NCBI GenBank assembly: GCA_913009825.1
Contig: CAJVYQ010000001.1
Coordinates: forward strand, 1-64,000
Length of the DNA: 64,000 nt
Source: an uncultured Deferribacteres bacterium
GTDB taxonomy: Bacteria > Zhuqueibacterota > JdFR-76 > DREG01
Reading direction: 5' to 3'
Under the pieces are notes generated by a model, which was not told where the DNA came from, searched no databases, and saw only the letters and a list, made by a program, of their open reading frames with translations. Position 1 is the first letter of the stretch, and each line of letters opens with the position of its first letter. A program made the position numbers and the translations under genes. Shown in pieces: positions 624 to 6,110 of this stretch.

Positions 624-1439
624 TTACCCGGAAACATCGATTGTAATGCCGCCGTTGACCGTTTTCAGTATAAGGCGCCCGCCGCCGCCGTTGAGTTCTC
701 CCCGGATACTTCTCCGGTTGAATTTTCCGGAAATCTTCAACGGAAGCTCACTGTTGATACCGCCGTTCACTGTGCTTATTTCAACATCAGCTGCAAAATC
801 GTTCGGAATGGAAAGTTGGATACCACCGTTAACCGTACGGAAACTCATTTCATCAAACTCAACAGATTCGCTTAAAAAAACTTTAATCCCGCCATTGACC
901 GTCGTGCAGGAAACACGCCCCTTGATATTGTACATTTTTATACTGCCATTCGTTGTTCCGGCCTTTATGTCACCCGCCACATCCTCGACCCGCAGTTTTC
1001 CGTTTACCGTGTGCAAATCCAGGTCAACTTCCCGGGGAACTTTTATGGTGAAACGAACAGTGACACCGGGATTTTTTTCACCGAAAAGCCAGGATAAAAA
1101 GTTAGAGTTGTGCCGTCTGGGATAATCCACCTCGATATCCAGGTTGTCCTTGTCATGATCGAATAAAACTTCCACCTTTTTCAGGAAATCTTCGGCTCTG
1201 CGACGATTGCCGTATTTCACTTCGATTTCTGCCGTAACATCCACCGATTCCTTATTCCAGGAAGTAATTTCCACCCCGCCATTAACATTACTCAACGAGA
1301 CCATGCCACCACGATTGAGAGAAAATGTTTTATGCACTGTTTTTGTTACTTTTTTTGCATAACTACTCTGTGGTGCCGATAAAATAAGGGTAAAGAAAGA
1401 AAGCACCAGGACAATTGCAATTGAATTTCTATTTTTCAT
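624..1439 (-). CDS. Exported DUF4097-type beta-repeat protein (NG-repeat)
   Basis: The protein has 271 aa with a signal peptide (hydrophobic residues 6-24, cleavage near SSYA-KK). The mature part carries about eight repeats centred on an Asn-Gly turn (SNVNGGV, TVNGKL, TTNGSI, TTVNGGI, RTVNGGI, STVNGGI, KTVNGGI) every 20-25 residues. This is the pattern of DUF4097 'putative adhesin' right-handed beta-helix proteins. It is the last gene of a six-gene operon, 67 bp after the lipoprotein gene. The family has no defined biochemical role; by analogy it is an extracytoplasmic structural or sensor-associated protein. No catalytic motif is visible. Confidence 0.75.
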   Translation of the reverse strand: MKNRNSIAIVLVLSFFTLILSAPQSSYAKKVTKTVHKTFSLNRGGMVSLSNVNGGVEITSWNKESVDVTAEIEVKYGNRRRAEDFLKKVEVLFDHDKDNLDIEVDYPRRHNSNFLSWLFGEKNPGVTVRFTIKVPREVDLDLHTVNGKLRVEDVAGDIKAGTTNGSIKMYNIKGRVSCTTVNGGIKVFLSESVEFDEMSFRTVNGGIQLSIPNDFAADVEISTVNGGINSELPLKISGKFNRRSIRGELNGGGGRLILKTVNGGITIDVSG

Positions 1440-1506
1440 ACAACCTCCATTTTACTTTTTCTAAAAAAAAACGCCGTTACAAGTACGGTTCGGAAACCGA
1501 AACGGT

Positions 1507-1968
1507 TCAATACAGATCGAATACAAAACTACGAACAAATTCTTTGTCCAAAAATACCGAAACACTCCATTCACCCGGCTTGGCGCTTGAAGTAGTGTTG
1601 AGAAAAAACCAGTTGATAAAACGGGTGTTTTTTGTGGAAATTTGGAACGAATCCCGATGAACTTCATCGCCGCCGGCATCGTACCAATACACCTCGGTTA
1701 GATGGGTGCCGGTGATATTTGCCCAATGCAGCCAAATATATACGCGATCAGCGATGGGAAAATTGTCGGTAATGGCCACCGGTTTCTGCTCATCCGTGAC
1801 ATCCGCACAAAGGACTGCCTCGATCAGGTAAGGTTCGTCGGTGGGGCCCAAACCGCCGCTGCCGCCACCTTCCGTCTGACCGCAGGAGAACAGAAAGAGC
1901 GATGCAAGGAATAGCATCAAAATCCCTTTTATGAAAAAATAGGGTTTTGCCGGAGTGGCTGCTTTCAT
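1507..1968 (-). CDS. Small lipoprotein of unknown function
   Basis: The protein has 153 aa: a basic N-terminus, a hydrophobic stretch and a lipobox LFLFSC (Cys 29), so it is a predicted lipoprotein. A Gly/Ser-rich linker follows, then a compact beta-rich domain with W-Y-D-A-G-G-D-E and a C-terminal PGEWSVSVFLDKEF segment. The latter resembles small immunoglobulin-like DUF2914-type domains, but the assignment is only suggestive. Its ATG overlaps the stop of the upstream gene by 4 bp, implying translational coupling. Function unknown. Confidence 0.7.
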   Translation of the reverse strand: MKAATPAKPYFFIKGILMLFLASLFLFSCGQTEGGGSGGLGPTDEPYLIEAVLCADVTDEQKPVAITDNFPIADRVYIWLHWANITGTHLTEVYWYDAGGDEVHRDSFQISTKNTRFINWFFLNTTSSAKPGEWSVSVFLDKEFVRSFVFDLY

Positions 1969-2615
1969 CCTGCGGTTTTTTCCCTGTACGTCACAAAAAA
2001 CTGGTTAGACCTGTTCTTTAAAATTTCCGCGAGGGTCATTATCCAGATGGCATGATTTTTATCCATCAAAATGGTTGCATTGGTATCCACGATTTCACCG
2101 GGCACAACCCATTGAAATCTGAAGTGAATCTCCTGTAGAATTTCCTTATTGAAGAAAGATTTGATCCCGGTTTTGAAAAAAAGCTTTGTCCGGTCGATTT
2201 TGCTCTCATCTAAATAGAGAAAGCGCTGCAGAGTCACAAGATGGTTCTTCACCGAATAAGAAAATTGTTCGTTTTTAAATCTTGGCGAACTCCCCAGAGC
2301 AGCTAAACTTTTAAAATGATAATCCATGTACACATGGGTTTGATCCTCTTTTTGCAAAACCTCGCTGGCAGTGTTTGTAACACCGTCGACAACATAATTA
2401 TTCTTGATGTTGTATTCGATATCATAAACATCGGTGGGAAAATAAAGCGTCTCAAATTTCATATCCTGCTCGGCCTGATAATGAATGTACAAATTGCCGG
2501 ATCCATCGACATTCATAACAATTTTTTCATCATATTCAAAACAACCCATAAGCAGCAATAAGCCAAGCAATAAAAAGACATGAAAAAGGGAACGAAGATT
2601 TTTTATTGAAATCAT
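1965..2615 (-). CDS. Lipoprotein with LppM-like N-terminal motif
   Basis: The protein has 216 aa. A hydrophobic signal ends in the lipobox LLLMGC (Cys 25). Directly after it comes FEYDEKIVMNVDGSGNLYIHY, a motif class seen in LppM-like lipoproteins, where the mature protein opens with 'x-D-E-x-h-x-h-x-x-D-G-S-G'. The remainder is predicted alpha/beta with no catalytic signature. It overlaps both neighbours by 4 bp (ATGA junctions) inside an operon of exported proteins. It probably sits on a periplasmic membrane face; its role is unknown. Confidence 0.7.
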   Translation of the reverse strand: MISIKNLRSLFHVFLLLGLLLLMGCFEYDEKIVMNVDGSGNLYIHYQAEQDMKFETLYFPTDVYDIEYNIKNNYVVDGVTNTASEVLQKEDQTHVYMDYHFKSLAALGSSPRFKNEQFSYSVKNHLVTLQRFLYLDESKIDRTKLFFKTGIKSFFNKEILQEIHFRFQWVVPGEIVDTNATILMDKNHAIWIMTLAEILKNRSNQFFVTYREKTAG

Positions 2616-3661
2616 GGAGGTTCGCCCTGCCAGATTTTTTCAATTTGAATATCGCCAAAATCTGTGACTATGTCGATTTTTCCCCCGGCCGGGTTCGTCT
2701 TTTTCAAACGGAAATAGTGTGTTGATCCCCGTTTGCGAATGACCCACGAATAGGGCGTCCGAATCCTGCCTAATCCGGTTTCCATGGAGATGGAACAGGG
2801 GAGCGCTTCGGGCATAAAAAAATGAATGTCACCATGTTCGCTCTCGATTCTGAATTGGCAGTTTTTGAAGCCGACCGGGCGGACAAAAATGTCTCCGGTC
2901 TTTGACTGCACATCAAAACCGGACGTCCGGTTGCCGATAAAATAGCCTTCCGCTTCTTTCAAACGGGTAACCAATTTCCCGATATTGCTTTTTTCAATGA
3001 TCAGAATTCCTTTGCCGGCAGAAATACCCATATTCACCATGGAACTGGAATACCCTTGCAGATTTTCTATTCTACTATGCACATTGCCAAGTCTCAGATC
3101 GATTTTATCTGCGTAAAGAGAGTCAAGATTGAGTTCTCCCTCTTTTTGTGCAATTTCCAAATTACCGTGTAGTGCAGAGATGGAAATATTACCGTTTGCC
3201 AAAATAATGACAAGCGCAACTTTCCGCGGAACCTGCAGGGATAAATCGATACGGGAAGAAGGTTTCCTTTTTAGTCCGGTTTTCTTTAAAATGCTCGACA
3301 GAAAATTTTTGGCATTGCGATTTAATTGTCTTATTTCCAACCGGTGGTTGCCACTGACAAACTCAACCTGCAGATTCTGCATTTTTTGAACCAACTGTTT
3401 TTCACTTCCGGCAGAAACCCATTTCCGCATCCGGACGTGAATTTTATTCTGCTGCCAGGTGACAATTTTTACATCCCCTAAATCGATATCTATTTTTAAA
3501 CCGTCGCCCGGTATAAACGCAAATGTTTTTTCTTTGTTGCTAACCTGTTCGTGGGCAGAACTTGCATAAGTGTATAGCAGCAGAAAGAAAACAATCAGAA
3601 TGAGGGCATAAATTCTCCCCCGGTTAGAATTGTTCATGCGAGCGTAAAAAGCAGTATTCAT
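2612..3661 (-). CDS. Exported DUF4097-like protein with N-terminal membrane anchor
   Basis: The protein has 349 aa. Residues 15-36 form one hydrophobic segment (uncleaved anchor or signal peptide). A beta-rich body follows, with repeats resembling DUF4097 (LKIDIDLGDVKIVTW, LANGNISISALHGNLEI, SKTGDIFVRP, SEHGDIHFFMP, TDFGDIQIEKI). A conserved 'V-P-R-K-V' strand precedes the repeat region, as in the two sister proteins of the operon. Met 9 is an alternative start; neither start has a strong ribosome binding site. It overlaps the downstream lipoprotein gene by 4 bp. Function unknown, probably a structural periplasmic beta-solenoid. Confidence 0.65.
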   Translation of the reverse strand: MNTAFYARMNNSNRGRIYALILIVFFLLLYTYASSAHEQVSNKEKTFAFIPGDGLKIDIDLGDVKIVTWQQNKIHVRMRKWVSAGSEKQLVQKMQNLQVEFVSGNHRLEIRQLNRNAKNFLSSILKKTGLKRKPSSRIDLSLQVPRKVALVIILANGNISISALHGNLEIAQKEGELNLDSLYADKIDLRLGNVHSRIENLQGYSSSMVNMGISAGKGILIIEKSNIGKLVTRLKEAEGYFIGNRTSGFDVQSKTGDIFVRPVGFKNCQFRIESEHGDIHFFMPEALPCSISMETGLGRIRTPYSWVIRKRGSTHYFRLKKTNPAGGKIDIVTDFGDIQIEKIWQGEPP

Positions 3662-3676
3662 TTTCTACCAGGCCAT

Positions 3677-4543
3677 TTAACGTAACCGGATATCCAACGT
3701 CCCCAAACCGGGTGACACCGAAATCAGGGTTTTATATTTTGCATCATCGTAGTTTTCGGAATAATAATATTTTCCTTCCCGTTTGTACTCGAAAGGCATA
3801 TCCACATTGGATAGAAATAAAAATTTAGATACCTTAAAACGTACAGCATCATCTTTCGACAAATAAACCCGCGTCTGACCGATATTCAGGCTCATATCGA
3901 TCTCACGGTCTCGCTTCTGCTCAACATCACCCGTCAGATCGATGCTTAATTCACCAATATTCCCATCTATTTGTGCAAATTCAAAATTGGCATTGCCCAG
4001 TTTTTCTGAAACCAATTCACCGATTTTGGTTTCAATGGTTAATTCTTTCATCCGTTCCCGGTTGGGCTTGGAAAAGGCTAAAAAAGTTTCTCCGGCAAGT
4101 ACCCGAAGACTAAATTCTCTGATCCGCAAATCACCTAACTCGATATCTGTTTCACCGGCTTTTGTCTTGCAATTCAGAATGATGGGGACACCATAAGGCA
4201 ATTCCACAAGGAGCCGCGCCGAAGATTTTTCGTCGTGGTCCTCATCTTTAAACCATTTCTTTATATCAAAATAGGCTTCCAACACATTCTCATCTTCATC
4301 GAACTGAACGCTGACTTCATATCGTCTGTCATCAAACCGGAAACTCAGGTGGATATCCCGGTCATCATTCCCGGGTTTGATTTTAACTTCTCCGGCATCT
4401 ACTGCGAGACGAATTTTCAACGGCATTCTTTTATCGGCTGTAAAATCATACTCCTTGTGCCTGACATCCCTGGCGAAAATCATGGATGAAGAGATCAGCA
4501 GTAGTGCCGGGACAAAGCCAAAATTTTTATGCAGATTTTTCAT
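3677..4543 (-). CDS. Exported toast-rack/DUF4097-like protein
   Basis: The start is ATG 4543, preceded by GGAGG with 7-nt spacing and followed by a signal peptide (MKNLHKNFGFVPALLL to MIFA-RD). A longer in-frame reading has no such support. The 288-aa protein is a repeated beta-strand ladder (AGEVKIKPG, AGETDIELGDL, LAGETFLAFS, IGELVSEKLG, IGELSIDLTGD, IGQTRVYLS). This is typical of DUF2154/'toast-rack' and DUF4097 domains, here with GE turns where the last gene of the operon uses NGG turns. It lies 46 bp after the barrel gene. Function unknown. Confidence 0.7.
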   Translation of the reverse strand: MKNLHKNFGFVPALLLISSSMIFARDVRHKEYDFTADKRMPLKIRLAVDAGEVKIKPGNDDRDIHLSFRFDDRRYEVSVQFDEDENVLEAYFDIKKWFKDEDHDEKSSARLLVELPYGVPIILNCKTKAGETDIELGDLRIREFSLRVLAGETFLAFSKPNRERMKELTIETKIGELVSEKLGNANFEFAQIDGNIGELSIDLTGDVEQKRDREIDMSLNIGQTRVYLSKDDAVRFKVSKFLFLSNVDMPFEYKREGKYYYSENYDDAKYKTLISVSPGLGTLDIRLR

Positions 4544-4589
4544 GTTTAACCTCCACCCCGGAATCGGGGGATTGATAAAAAAGCCGGTT

Positions 4590-5846
4590 TTAAAATGGTT
4601 GGGAAAGCCGGAAGGTAACCCTGATGGCGTCAACCGAACGGTCCAGTCTTTTGGCAATATTCAGCCGCATGGAACCGTCGCTCGTGGCAAATGCAATTCC
4701 TGCATCGGAATATAAATCCCGAAACGTTAAATCCTGAAAATCCATATCTTCTCTGAACCAGGCGGCGCCGGCATCGGCAAAAATAATAAAGTTAAATTCA
4801 TCAAGAATTGGGATGCTTGGGCTCCAATTCAGGCGGTCCCAGTTGACATGATATTCTATATTCCCCAAAATCATGCGGTCCCCTGTGAAAGCCTTGTAAT
4901 CAAAAGCACGCAGAGTACTGATACCGCCAAGATCAAAATATTTTTGAATGGGTAAAACTCCGGTGGACTCCCCGGCACGAATTCTGATATTAATATTTTC
5001 CCCGCGGGAAATAGGCTGGAAGCGCCGGACATCTAGAATATACCGTTCAAAATCGACCGTTCCGTTGAATTTGGCGGGAAAATATTCTGCAACCATATTG
5101 ATCAGCCAGCCTTTTCTGGTTGAATGATAGCGGTTCCGGGTATCGATCCGAAACTGGCTTAAAAGACCTCGCAGCGTTGCCTCTTCAATTGCCGGATTCA
5201 TACGAAAACTTTTACGCCCGCCGAATAGCGCCCAATCCGTTTTTCTAAAAAGATTTCGATGATCTTCCTCGTAATAACCGGCTTTTAATCTGGCGTGACG
5301 CGTAAATTGCTGTGAGAAGAAACCACCGTACCCGATACGCCGGTAAAAATCGTGATAATCTTCGTGAATTAGCAACGCAGCAAGAGAATTCTCCATGGTT
5401 GGAATCAGCCATTCATCTTCCGAGTAGGTCAAATCGTAAGCTTCGGCGCCAAAAGATGTTTGCATGTAAGCAGGGAAAAAGCTTCGTTCAAAAGCCACCT
5501 GATACTGAAACCGGTTGCTTTTCAGCCCGATGCCGGCCAGTCCGTAAATCTGGAAAATTCCATGACGACGGTATAATTCACGGGGTTTTTTATATCCCAC
5601 AAACAGCCCGTCAACGCGATTATACTGAAGACAAAAAGAGTCATCAATCTCGTCATCATAACAACCGAACAACCCATCACGGCTCCAACCCGAAGTGTAA
5701 CCGGAAAAGATCCCGGAATGGGCGCCGATTGTCGCATGGTTCAATCGGTGTAAATGGTTTTTTTCAGGCGTACCGGCAAAAATAATTCCGGCAAACAGGA
5801 CACTCAAAGAGACCACACTTAAAGAAAACGGATAAAATCGTTTCAT
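4590..5846 (-). CDS. Outer-membrane beta-barrel protein, Omp85/surface-antigen C-terminal type
   Basis: ATG 5846 has GGGAG upstream and opens a signal peptide ending IIFA-GT. The 418-aa protein consists of alternating amphipathic beta-strands. It contains the Omp85 landmark YFDLGGISTLRAFDY (the GG..LR.F loop motif) and a terminal aromatic residue (LSQPF). Unlike BamA or TamA there are no POTRA domains: barrel only, about 16 strands' worth of sequence. It is the first gene of the operon. I infer an outer-membrane partner or pore for the beta-repeat proteins encoded downstream. Confidence 0.75.
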   Translation of the reverse strand: MKRFYPFSLSVVSLSVLFAGIIFAGTPEKNHLHRLNHATIGAHSGIFSGYTSGWSRDGLFGCYDDEIDDSFCLQYNRVDGLFVGYKKPRELYRRHGIFQIYGLAGIGLKSNRFQYQVAFERSFFPAYMQTSFGAEAYDLTYSEDEWLIPTMENSLAALLIHEDYHDFYRRIGYGGFFSQQFTRHARLKAGYYEEDHRNLFRKTDWALFGGRKSFRMNPAIEEATLRGLLSQFRIDTRNRYHSTRKGWLINMVAEYFPAKFNGTVDFERYILDVRRFQPISRGENINIRIRAGESTGVLPIQKYFDLGGISTLRAFDYKAFTGDRMILGNIEYHVNWDRLNWSPSIPILDEFNFIIFADAGAAWFREDMDFQDLTFRDLYSDAGIAFATSDGSMRLNIAKRLDRSVDAIRVTFRLSQPF

Positions 5847-5952
5847 GGCAAAATCTCCCTTTTCTGATCGAAGATTTTCAGTTAATTTGCTACGAGGAAG
5901 ATACGCTTCGGGTATGGAATTGTTGCACATATTTTTCCCACGGTTATTCTAA

Positions 5953-6103
5953 CCTTAATTGAGCGATTCTGAACTTCAGACTATCACTTATCGAGTGAAA
6001 TGTCATTCAGTATGAATCTTGTTATTTTAATGCTTATAATCAAAAATATTTCTCCCCGCCTGCAACGGGCAGGCTGAATGACAAAAGAATCGCTCGGATT
6101 AGG
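5953..6103. repeat. Family B MITE copy with 5-bp TSD
   Basis: The left end is CCTTAATTGAGCGATTCT and the right end AGAATCGCTCGGATTAGG. They are imperfect inverted repeats flanked by the direct repeat TCTAA (5948-5952 and 6104-6108). The interior carries a second inverted pair (TGTCATTCAG / CTGAATGACA) and the small hairpin CCTGCAACGGGCAGG. It lies between the operon promoter region (5847-5952) and rluD. Confidence 0.75.
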
Positions 6104-6110
6104 TCTAATC

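Follow-up and report, generated by a model that had tools for sequence, protein, structure and literature searches.

The 64,000-nucleotide stretch analyzed here (hereafter, the window) comprises positions 1 to 64,000 of contig CAJVYQ010000001.1 from an uncultured Deferribacteres bacterium (assembly GCA_913009825.1; GTDB Zhuqueibacterota), and it carries on its minus strand, at 624-5846, a six-gene operon in which all six open reading frames are intact. From 5' to 3' the genes encode an Omp85-type barrel, two β-ladder proteins (toastA and toastB), two lipoproteins (lipo3 and lipo2), and a third ladder protein (toastC); their coordinates and principal features are collected in Table 1. A preliminary description made from the sequence had reported tightly packed genes whose products are all exported. 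Re-measurement of the intergenic gaps, from the barrel to toastC, returned exactly the same values (46, 15, -4, -4, and 67 bp), and reading by eye found an export signal in every product, namely signal sequences in the barrel, toastA, toastB, and toastC and lipoboxes in lipo3 (LLMGC) and lipo2 (LFSC). Additionally, the AlphaFold2 (AF2) models of the barrel and lipo3 both show a helix at the N-terminus.

Table 1. Genes and barrel features of the six-gene operon, in window coordinates.
Feature	Position	Strand	Evidence
Omp85 16-strand barrel, 418 aa, no POTRA	4590-5846	-	Pfam Omp85, AF2, Foldseek, phylum-wide orthologues
Barrel residues 25-66, short disordered N-terminal segment (bactofilin-like or DUF4252 domain here in relatives)	5649-5774	-	pLDDT mostly <50
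Barrel loop 5-6, conserved helix with W146, E152, N153, D163, D166	5349-5420	-	Five positions identical in 60/60 sequences
Barrel L6-like motif GGISTLRAFD (relatives LRGY)	4899-4928	-	Between strands 11 and 12, as Omp85 L6
toastA, exported LiaF-like_C/DUF2154-type Toastrack	3677-4543	-	Pfam PF09922 in orthologues
toastB, exported DUF4097 Toastrack	2612-3661	-	PF13349, 3.2e-9
lipo3, lipoprotein, LppM-like predicted fold, LIC11874-like	1965-2615	-	AF2, Foldseek, NCBIfam
lipo2, lipoprotein restricted to close relatives	1507-1968	-	Lipobox
toastC, exported DUF4097 Toastrack with T-NGG turns	624-1439	-	PF13349, 5.3e-9

The first product had been called an Omp85 barrel without POTRA, and our analyses agree: the protein matches Pfam Omp85 (E 5.5e-9), its model has 16 strands, and POTRA (PF07244) was found in none of 42 barrel homologues. 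The AF2 model, built on an alignment of 60 orthologues, reached a predicted local distance difference test score (pLDDT) of 85.7 and a predicted template-modeling score (pTM) of 0.81, with the strands lying within residues 70-413 and residues 1-66 disordered. BamA and TamA were the first matches for both the 60-orthologue profile and the model (Foldseek to BamA, E 4e-14), while a plain phmmer search with the barrel found no match in the PDB, where the profile did. The L6 form is a variant, GGxxxLR(A/G)(F/Y) as opposed to the (V/I)RGF type, and the C-terminal residue is phenylalanine. Loops 5-6, 7-8, and 11-12 are among the most conserved parts of the protein; Omp85 topology would place these loops outside, and such high conservation suggests that they may fold into or cap the barrel lumen. 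The barrel is compatible with the Omp85 'noNterm' class. A second POTRA-less barrel paralogue of ~30% identity lies at L017:7914-9137, where it adjoins a POTRA-bearing Omp85 protein (L017:6574-7917), and this paralogue recurs across the phylum.

The preliminary description had also taken the three ladder proteins to be related, and profile comparison links toastA, toastB, and toastC with one another at hhalign probabilities of 95-100%; on these profiles, all of them fall within the established Toastrack superfamily. Both toastB and toastC exceed the PF13349 cut-off, and toastC has in addition a LiaX-like match (2.9e-9) that falls below its cut-off. For toastA, PF09922 scores 28.8 against a cut-off of 29, and among its orthologues PF09922 is matched in 24 of 25 and DUF4097 in 11. 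The proteins are 270-350 aa long, no PDB chain was matched by the toastC profile, and Pfam found no two-partner secretion (TPS) or haemagglutination profile in any of the three. Their turn motifs differ as had been reported, with GE in the first, GN/GD in the second (DEGD in its homologues), and NGG in the third. The proposal that the family had expanded inside one operon was rejected, since orthologues specific to each type are spread throughout the phylum, and for this reason the three are best described, from sequence comparison, as old paralogues that have been gathered together.

Of the lipoproteins, lipo3 gave an AF2 model (pLDDT 82) that Foldseek aligned with LppM (PDB 2nc8) at E 1e-8, template-modeling scores of 0.47/0.57, and 12% sequence identity. 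The NCBIfam family LIC11874 matches all six lipo3 family members, and Pfam LppM matches two of the six weakly (E 0.036) and the window lipo3 not at all. No family match was obtained for lipo2, whose homologue occurs in one close relative genome only (L102/L013) and itself has a weak DUF3859 match.

A gene-neighborhood survey of 82 genomes of the phylum showed that these genes are kept together. A barrel orthologue is present in 66 genomes (76 when the second paralogue is counted), toastA also in 66, and both in 59. In 36 genomes belonging to 18 families toastA lies directly downstream of the barrel, a recurrence far beyond chance, and in nine more it shares the contig and strand of the barrel, eight times within ~3 kb downstream and once ~10 kb upstream. 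The remainder of the order, toastA-toastB-lipo3-toastC, is likewise conserved: toastB comes next after toastA in 24/24 genomes that have an orthologue of each, lipo3 comes after toastB in 12/13, and toastC, which has orthologues in about 45 genomes, is found ≤5 kb downstream of toastA in 25/28. Even with the barrel elsewhere the toastA-toastB-lipo3-toastC block is intact in family f23 (G079, G080, and G081), and in some genomes Toastracks occur without an adjacent barrel. The named records include candidate division KSB1, Calditrichota, Marinimicrobia, Gemmatimonadota, Latescibacterota, and Zixibacteria; nearly all are metagenome-assembled genomes (MAGs), so that absences and some taxon names (e.g., 'Actinomycetota' for L120) are unreliable. 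Taken together, the POTRA-less barrel, the three Toastrack types, and the LppM-like lipoprotein form a cluster that is conserved phylum-wide, and neither of the outcomes that the preliminary description had named as evidence against itself, namely genes that are not kept together or predicted structures with unrelated folds, was found.

Most relatives of the barrel carry ~90-440 additional N-terminal residues. Pfam at E 0.01 detected Bactofilin in 23 of the 42 barrels, some of these matches being below the curated cut-off, and DUF4252 in 4. When barrels were labeled as having no domain, a solenoid (assigned by permissive jackhmmer searches), or DUF4252, the label changed 7 times on a 77-barrel tree compared with 23.6 times in shuffles. 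The DUF4252 barrels form one supported clade in this tree, and the window barrel falls in a supported clade of six, all without an N-terminal domain. The domain was likely, but not provably, lost in the lineage of the window barrel, a caution owed to the deep branching and root of the tree, which are not resolved.

In several lineages the cluster shares an operon with an extracytoplasmic function (ECF) sigma factor and a zinc-finger/HEAT anti-sigma factor. A compact operon from Zixibacteria (L155) runs from ECF sigma and anti-sigma through a DUF4097-like Toastrack of 458 aa and a solenoid barrel to toastA; the same plan is seen in LCP-89 (L168), whose proteins are homologous to their Zixibacteria counterparts, in KSB1 (L148), and, as far as the contig reaches, in Calditrichaeota (L161), where the contig begins with a fragment of the anti-sigma gene. 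The anti-sigma proteins combine zf-HC2 with HEAT repeats that lie beyond a hydrophobic segment (by eye). Furthermore, in Gemmatimonadota/Latescibacterota the DUF4252 barrels lie downstream of sigma/anti-sigma genes (L162) or of sigma genes (L165 and L166). At one of these loci (Latescibacterota, L165:7784-12783) the DUF4252-fused barrel, behind its sigma factor, is also flanked by two proteins that resemble, by eye, caspase-type peptidases (YYSGHAD).

The genome from which the window comes has, on an unlinked contig (C39; L019:6791-11204), an ECF sigma factor, a zf-HC2/HEAT anti-sigma factor, and two exported Toastracks (toast344 and toast423), one of which carries many TSGG(D/N) repeats. The KSB1 locus L148 holds in one seven-gene run a homologue of each of the four C39 genes (42, 27, 37, and 66% identity, with 66% to toast344 and 37% to toast423) together with homologues of the window barrel (39%), toastA (26%), and toastC (38%). 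This joining of both gene sets is the strongest reason for tying the window operon to an ECF-sigma envelope response, and the C39 operon is a probable regulatory counterpart to the window genes.

We therefore weigh, at about even odds of being right, the reading that the operon is the outer-membrane and periplasmic arm of an ECF-sigma-linked module for envelope stress, that is, for outer-membrane integrity. In other systems Toastracks take part in sensing envelope stress: daptomycin is bound by LiaX (PF13349), whose C-terminal domain restrains LiaFSR (PMC10269926), and a survey of the superfamily proposed that Toastrack serves as a scaffold of stress-signaling complexes (PMC11237479). From the linkage, which comparative genomics establishes, we infer that the exported Toastracks would dock on the side of the barrel that faces the periplasm, at which relatives have a β-solenoid in the POTRA position, and also on one or both lipoproteins, and would there maintain or monitor the state of the outer membrane. 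The condition of this Toastrack scaffold would be read by a periplasmic HEAT domain on the anti-sigma factor, damage would release the sigma factor and raise production of the module, and the C39 sigma factor would regulate the window operon. Such a module may work in the manner of LiaF/LiaX with LiaSR, or of RseA/sigma-E, with the Toastrack scaffold placed instead at the outer membrane.

Several observations weigh against this reading. The window operon itself contains no sigma gene, and inspection by eye of the regions preceding the sigma genes and, in six genomes, the barrel found nothing clear by way of a shared ECF promoter. In addition, Ravi et al. describe Toastrack as generally intracellular (PMC11237479), and export is read here from signal sequences by eye. 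Finally, toastA was not found in 7 barrel-bearing genomes and 7 genomes with toastA have no barrel orthologue, so the partnership of barrel and toastA is not strictly obligatory, with the caution that these genomes are MAGs.

An alternative that we consider unlikely, though not far-fetched, is a two-partner-like secretion route in which at least one Toastrack passes through the barrel to the cell surface, as right-handed β-helical TpsA proteins do through FhaC-type barrels, with a β-solenoid or nothing in place of POTRA. The direct adjacency of an Omp85 barrel and an exported β-helical protein in the 36 genomes would fit such a system, as would the weak ShlB/FhaC profile matches of 9 of the 42 barrels. 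POTRA and TPS domains are, however, both missing, and membership in two-partner secretion was rejected on that ground; the Toastracks are small compared with typical TpsA, Toastracks without a nearby barrel and barrels without toastA both occur, and the two accompanying lipoproteins are left unexplained.

It is fairly improbable that the barrel is instead an accessory inserter for a subset of outer-membrane proteins (OMPs), akin to the β-barrel assembly machinery (BAM), with the Toastracks and lipoproteins in the role of BamB-E. BamA is the best profile and fold match, BAM too has accessory lipoproteins, and Omp85 'noNterm' proteins have been proposed to be accessory assembly factors (PMC4104836). 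Substrate recruitment by POTRA would nevertheless be lacking, Toastracks have no known chaperone role, and the sigma/anti-sigma linkage would go unexplained unless it reflected a sigma-E-like OMP-folding response. Far less probable is the view that the Toastracks are surface adhesins anchored by the barrel, comparable to the 'head GIN' (DUF2807) proteins found in Bacteroidales. In Porphyromonas gingivalis one DUF2807 protein reportedly influences biofilm and attachment to host cells (PMC10949514), and DUF2807 is a member of the Toastrack superfamily (PMC11237479), but the relatives here are mostly environmental MAGs, toastA is conserved and mostly single-copy across the phylum, unlike fast-evolving adhesins, and this view does not account for the linkage to anti-sigma/sigma genes and to the LppM-like lipoprotein. 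The idea that unrelated envelope genes without common function simply lie together here, to which the partial dispersal in some families might point, is scarcely credible and is largely refuted by the synteny survey, with order conserved over at least 18 families and several phyla.

A number of further observations concern the surroundings of these genes. A secreted family of ~500-600 aa, for which Pfam gave no confident match, stands beside barrel/Toastrack genes at 16 loci (e.g., L147:14421-16127 and L112:11081-12829), and a membrane protein of ~210 aa with a weak GPDPase_memb match below cut-off is next to or near toastA at L128:4859-5491 and 10 other loci. At locus L014 (contig C17 of genome G001), lipo3 and toastC have an in-frame stop or are split, which reflects either decay or an assembly error. 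Flanking the window operon at 381-501 and 5952-6104 are copies of an 18-nt motif, GAATCGCTCAATTMAGGT, with 316 occurrences across the 5.1 Mb genome (161/155 by strand, allowing ≤1 mismatch; 0 for the reversed control), often as inverted pairs ~95-130 bp apart; it looks like an abundant repetitive extragenic palindromic (REP)-like or miniature inverted-repeat transposable element (MITE)-like element. Terminator consensus scans gave no excess (7 found, 7.2 expected).

Each component of the operon is of a known kind, and as far as can be told it is the combination that is new. The preliminary description knew of no described system with this set, and we found none in the openly licensed literature searched, where no paper joined Omp85 with bactofilin or Toastrack with periplasm and outer membrane, although this negative counts as weak evidence. 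The operon and its relatives may, somewhat more tentatively than the module itself, represent a new class of outer-membrane stress machine, in which an Omp85 barrel with a bactofilin-like solenoid or separate Toastracks at the POTRA position is coupled through a periplasmic HEAT anti-sigma factor to an ECF sigma factor; the class would be widespread in Calditrichota/KSB1, Zixibacteria, and LCP-89 and, with DUF4252, in Latescibacterota and Gemmatimonadota. It would be a candidate stress pathway for phyla without a described one.

Comparison with the closest known systems shows where this combination departs from each. The DUF5686 barrels of the Bacteroidota type resemble the window barrel, whose N-terminal half matches DUF5686 below cut-off (26.6 vs 39.2 bits), but the DUF5686 protein of the same genome (L018:377-2869) has a carboxypeptidase-regulatory-like domain and no surrounding Toastrack operon. 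Two-partner secretion (FhaC/FHA) likewise sets an Omp85-superfamily barrel beside an exported β-helical protein, whereas the window operon combines the absence of POTRA and TPS domains with small cargo, extra lipoproteins, and sigma linkage in relatives. LppM (Rv2171) of M. tuberculosis, for which binding of lipids, namely phosphatidylinositol mannosides, has been reported, is likened to lipo3 by predicted fold, with low sequence identity, and the LIC11874 profile covers the lipo3 family as a whole. Among Omp85 proteins, the 'noNterm' subfamily, one of ten covered by the survey of Heinz and Lithgow (2014; PMC4104836), is also a barrel without POTRA or other N-terminal domain; the window barrel differs in its tie to Toastracks and in having closest orthologues with bactofilin-like or DUF4252 domains at the POTRA position, architectures that do not appear among the ten subfamilies in the available text of that survey. 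The Lia/Psp Toastrack systems (LiaF, LiaG, LiaX, and VraT; Ravi et al., 2024, PMC11237479) share the PF13349/PF09922 superfamily and the links to envelope stress and to transcription control, but they operate at the inner membrane with two-component systems, PspA/PspC, or LiaI-LiaF-TM domains, none of which Pfam found among the six genes of the window operon. Toastracks such as LiaF, LiaX, and their relatives are known as inner-membrane envelope-stress parts, mainly of Gram-positive bacteria; those described here bear signal sequences and stand beside an outer-membrane barrel, with ECF sigma and anti-sigma factors joining them in relatives, an association that would locate a scaffold of Toastracks at the outer membrane.

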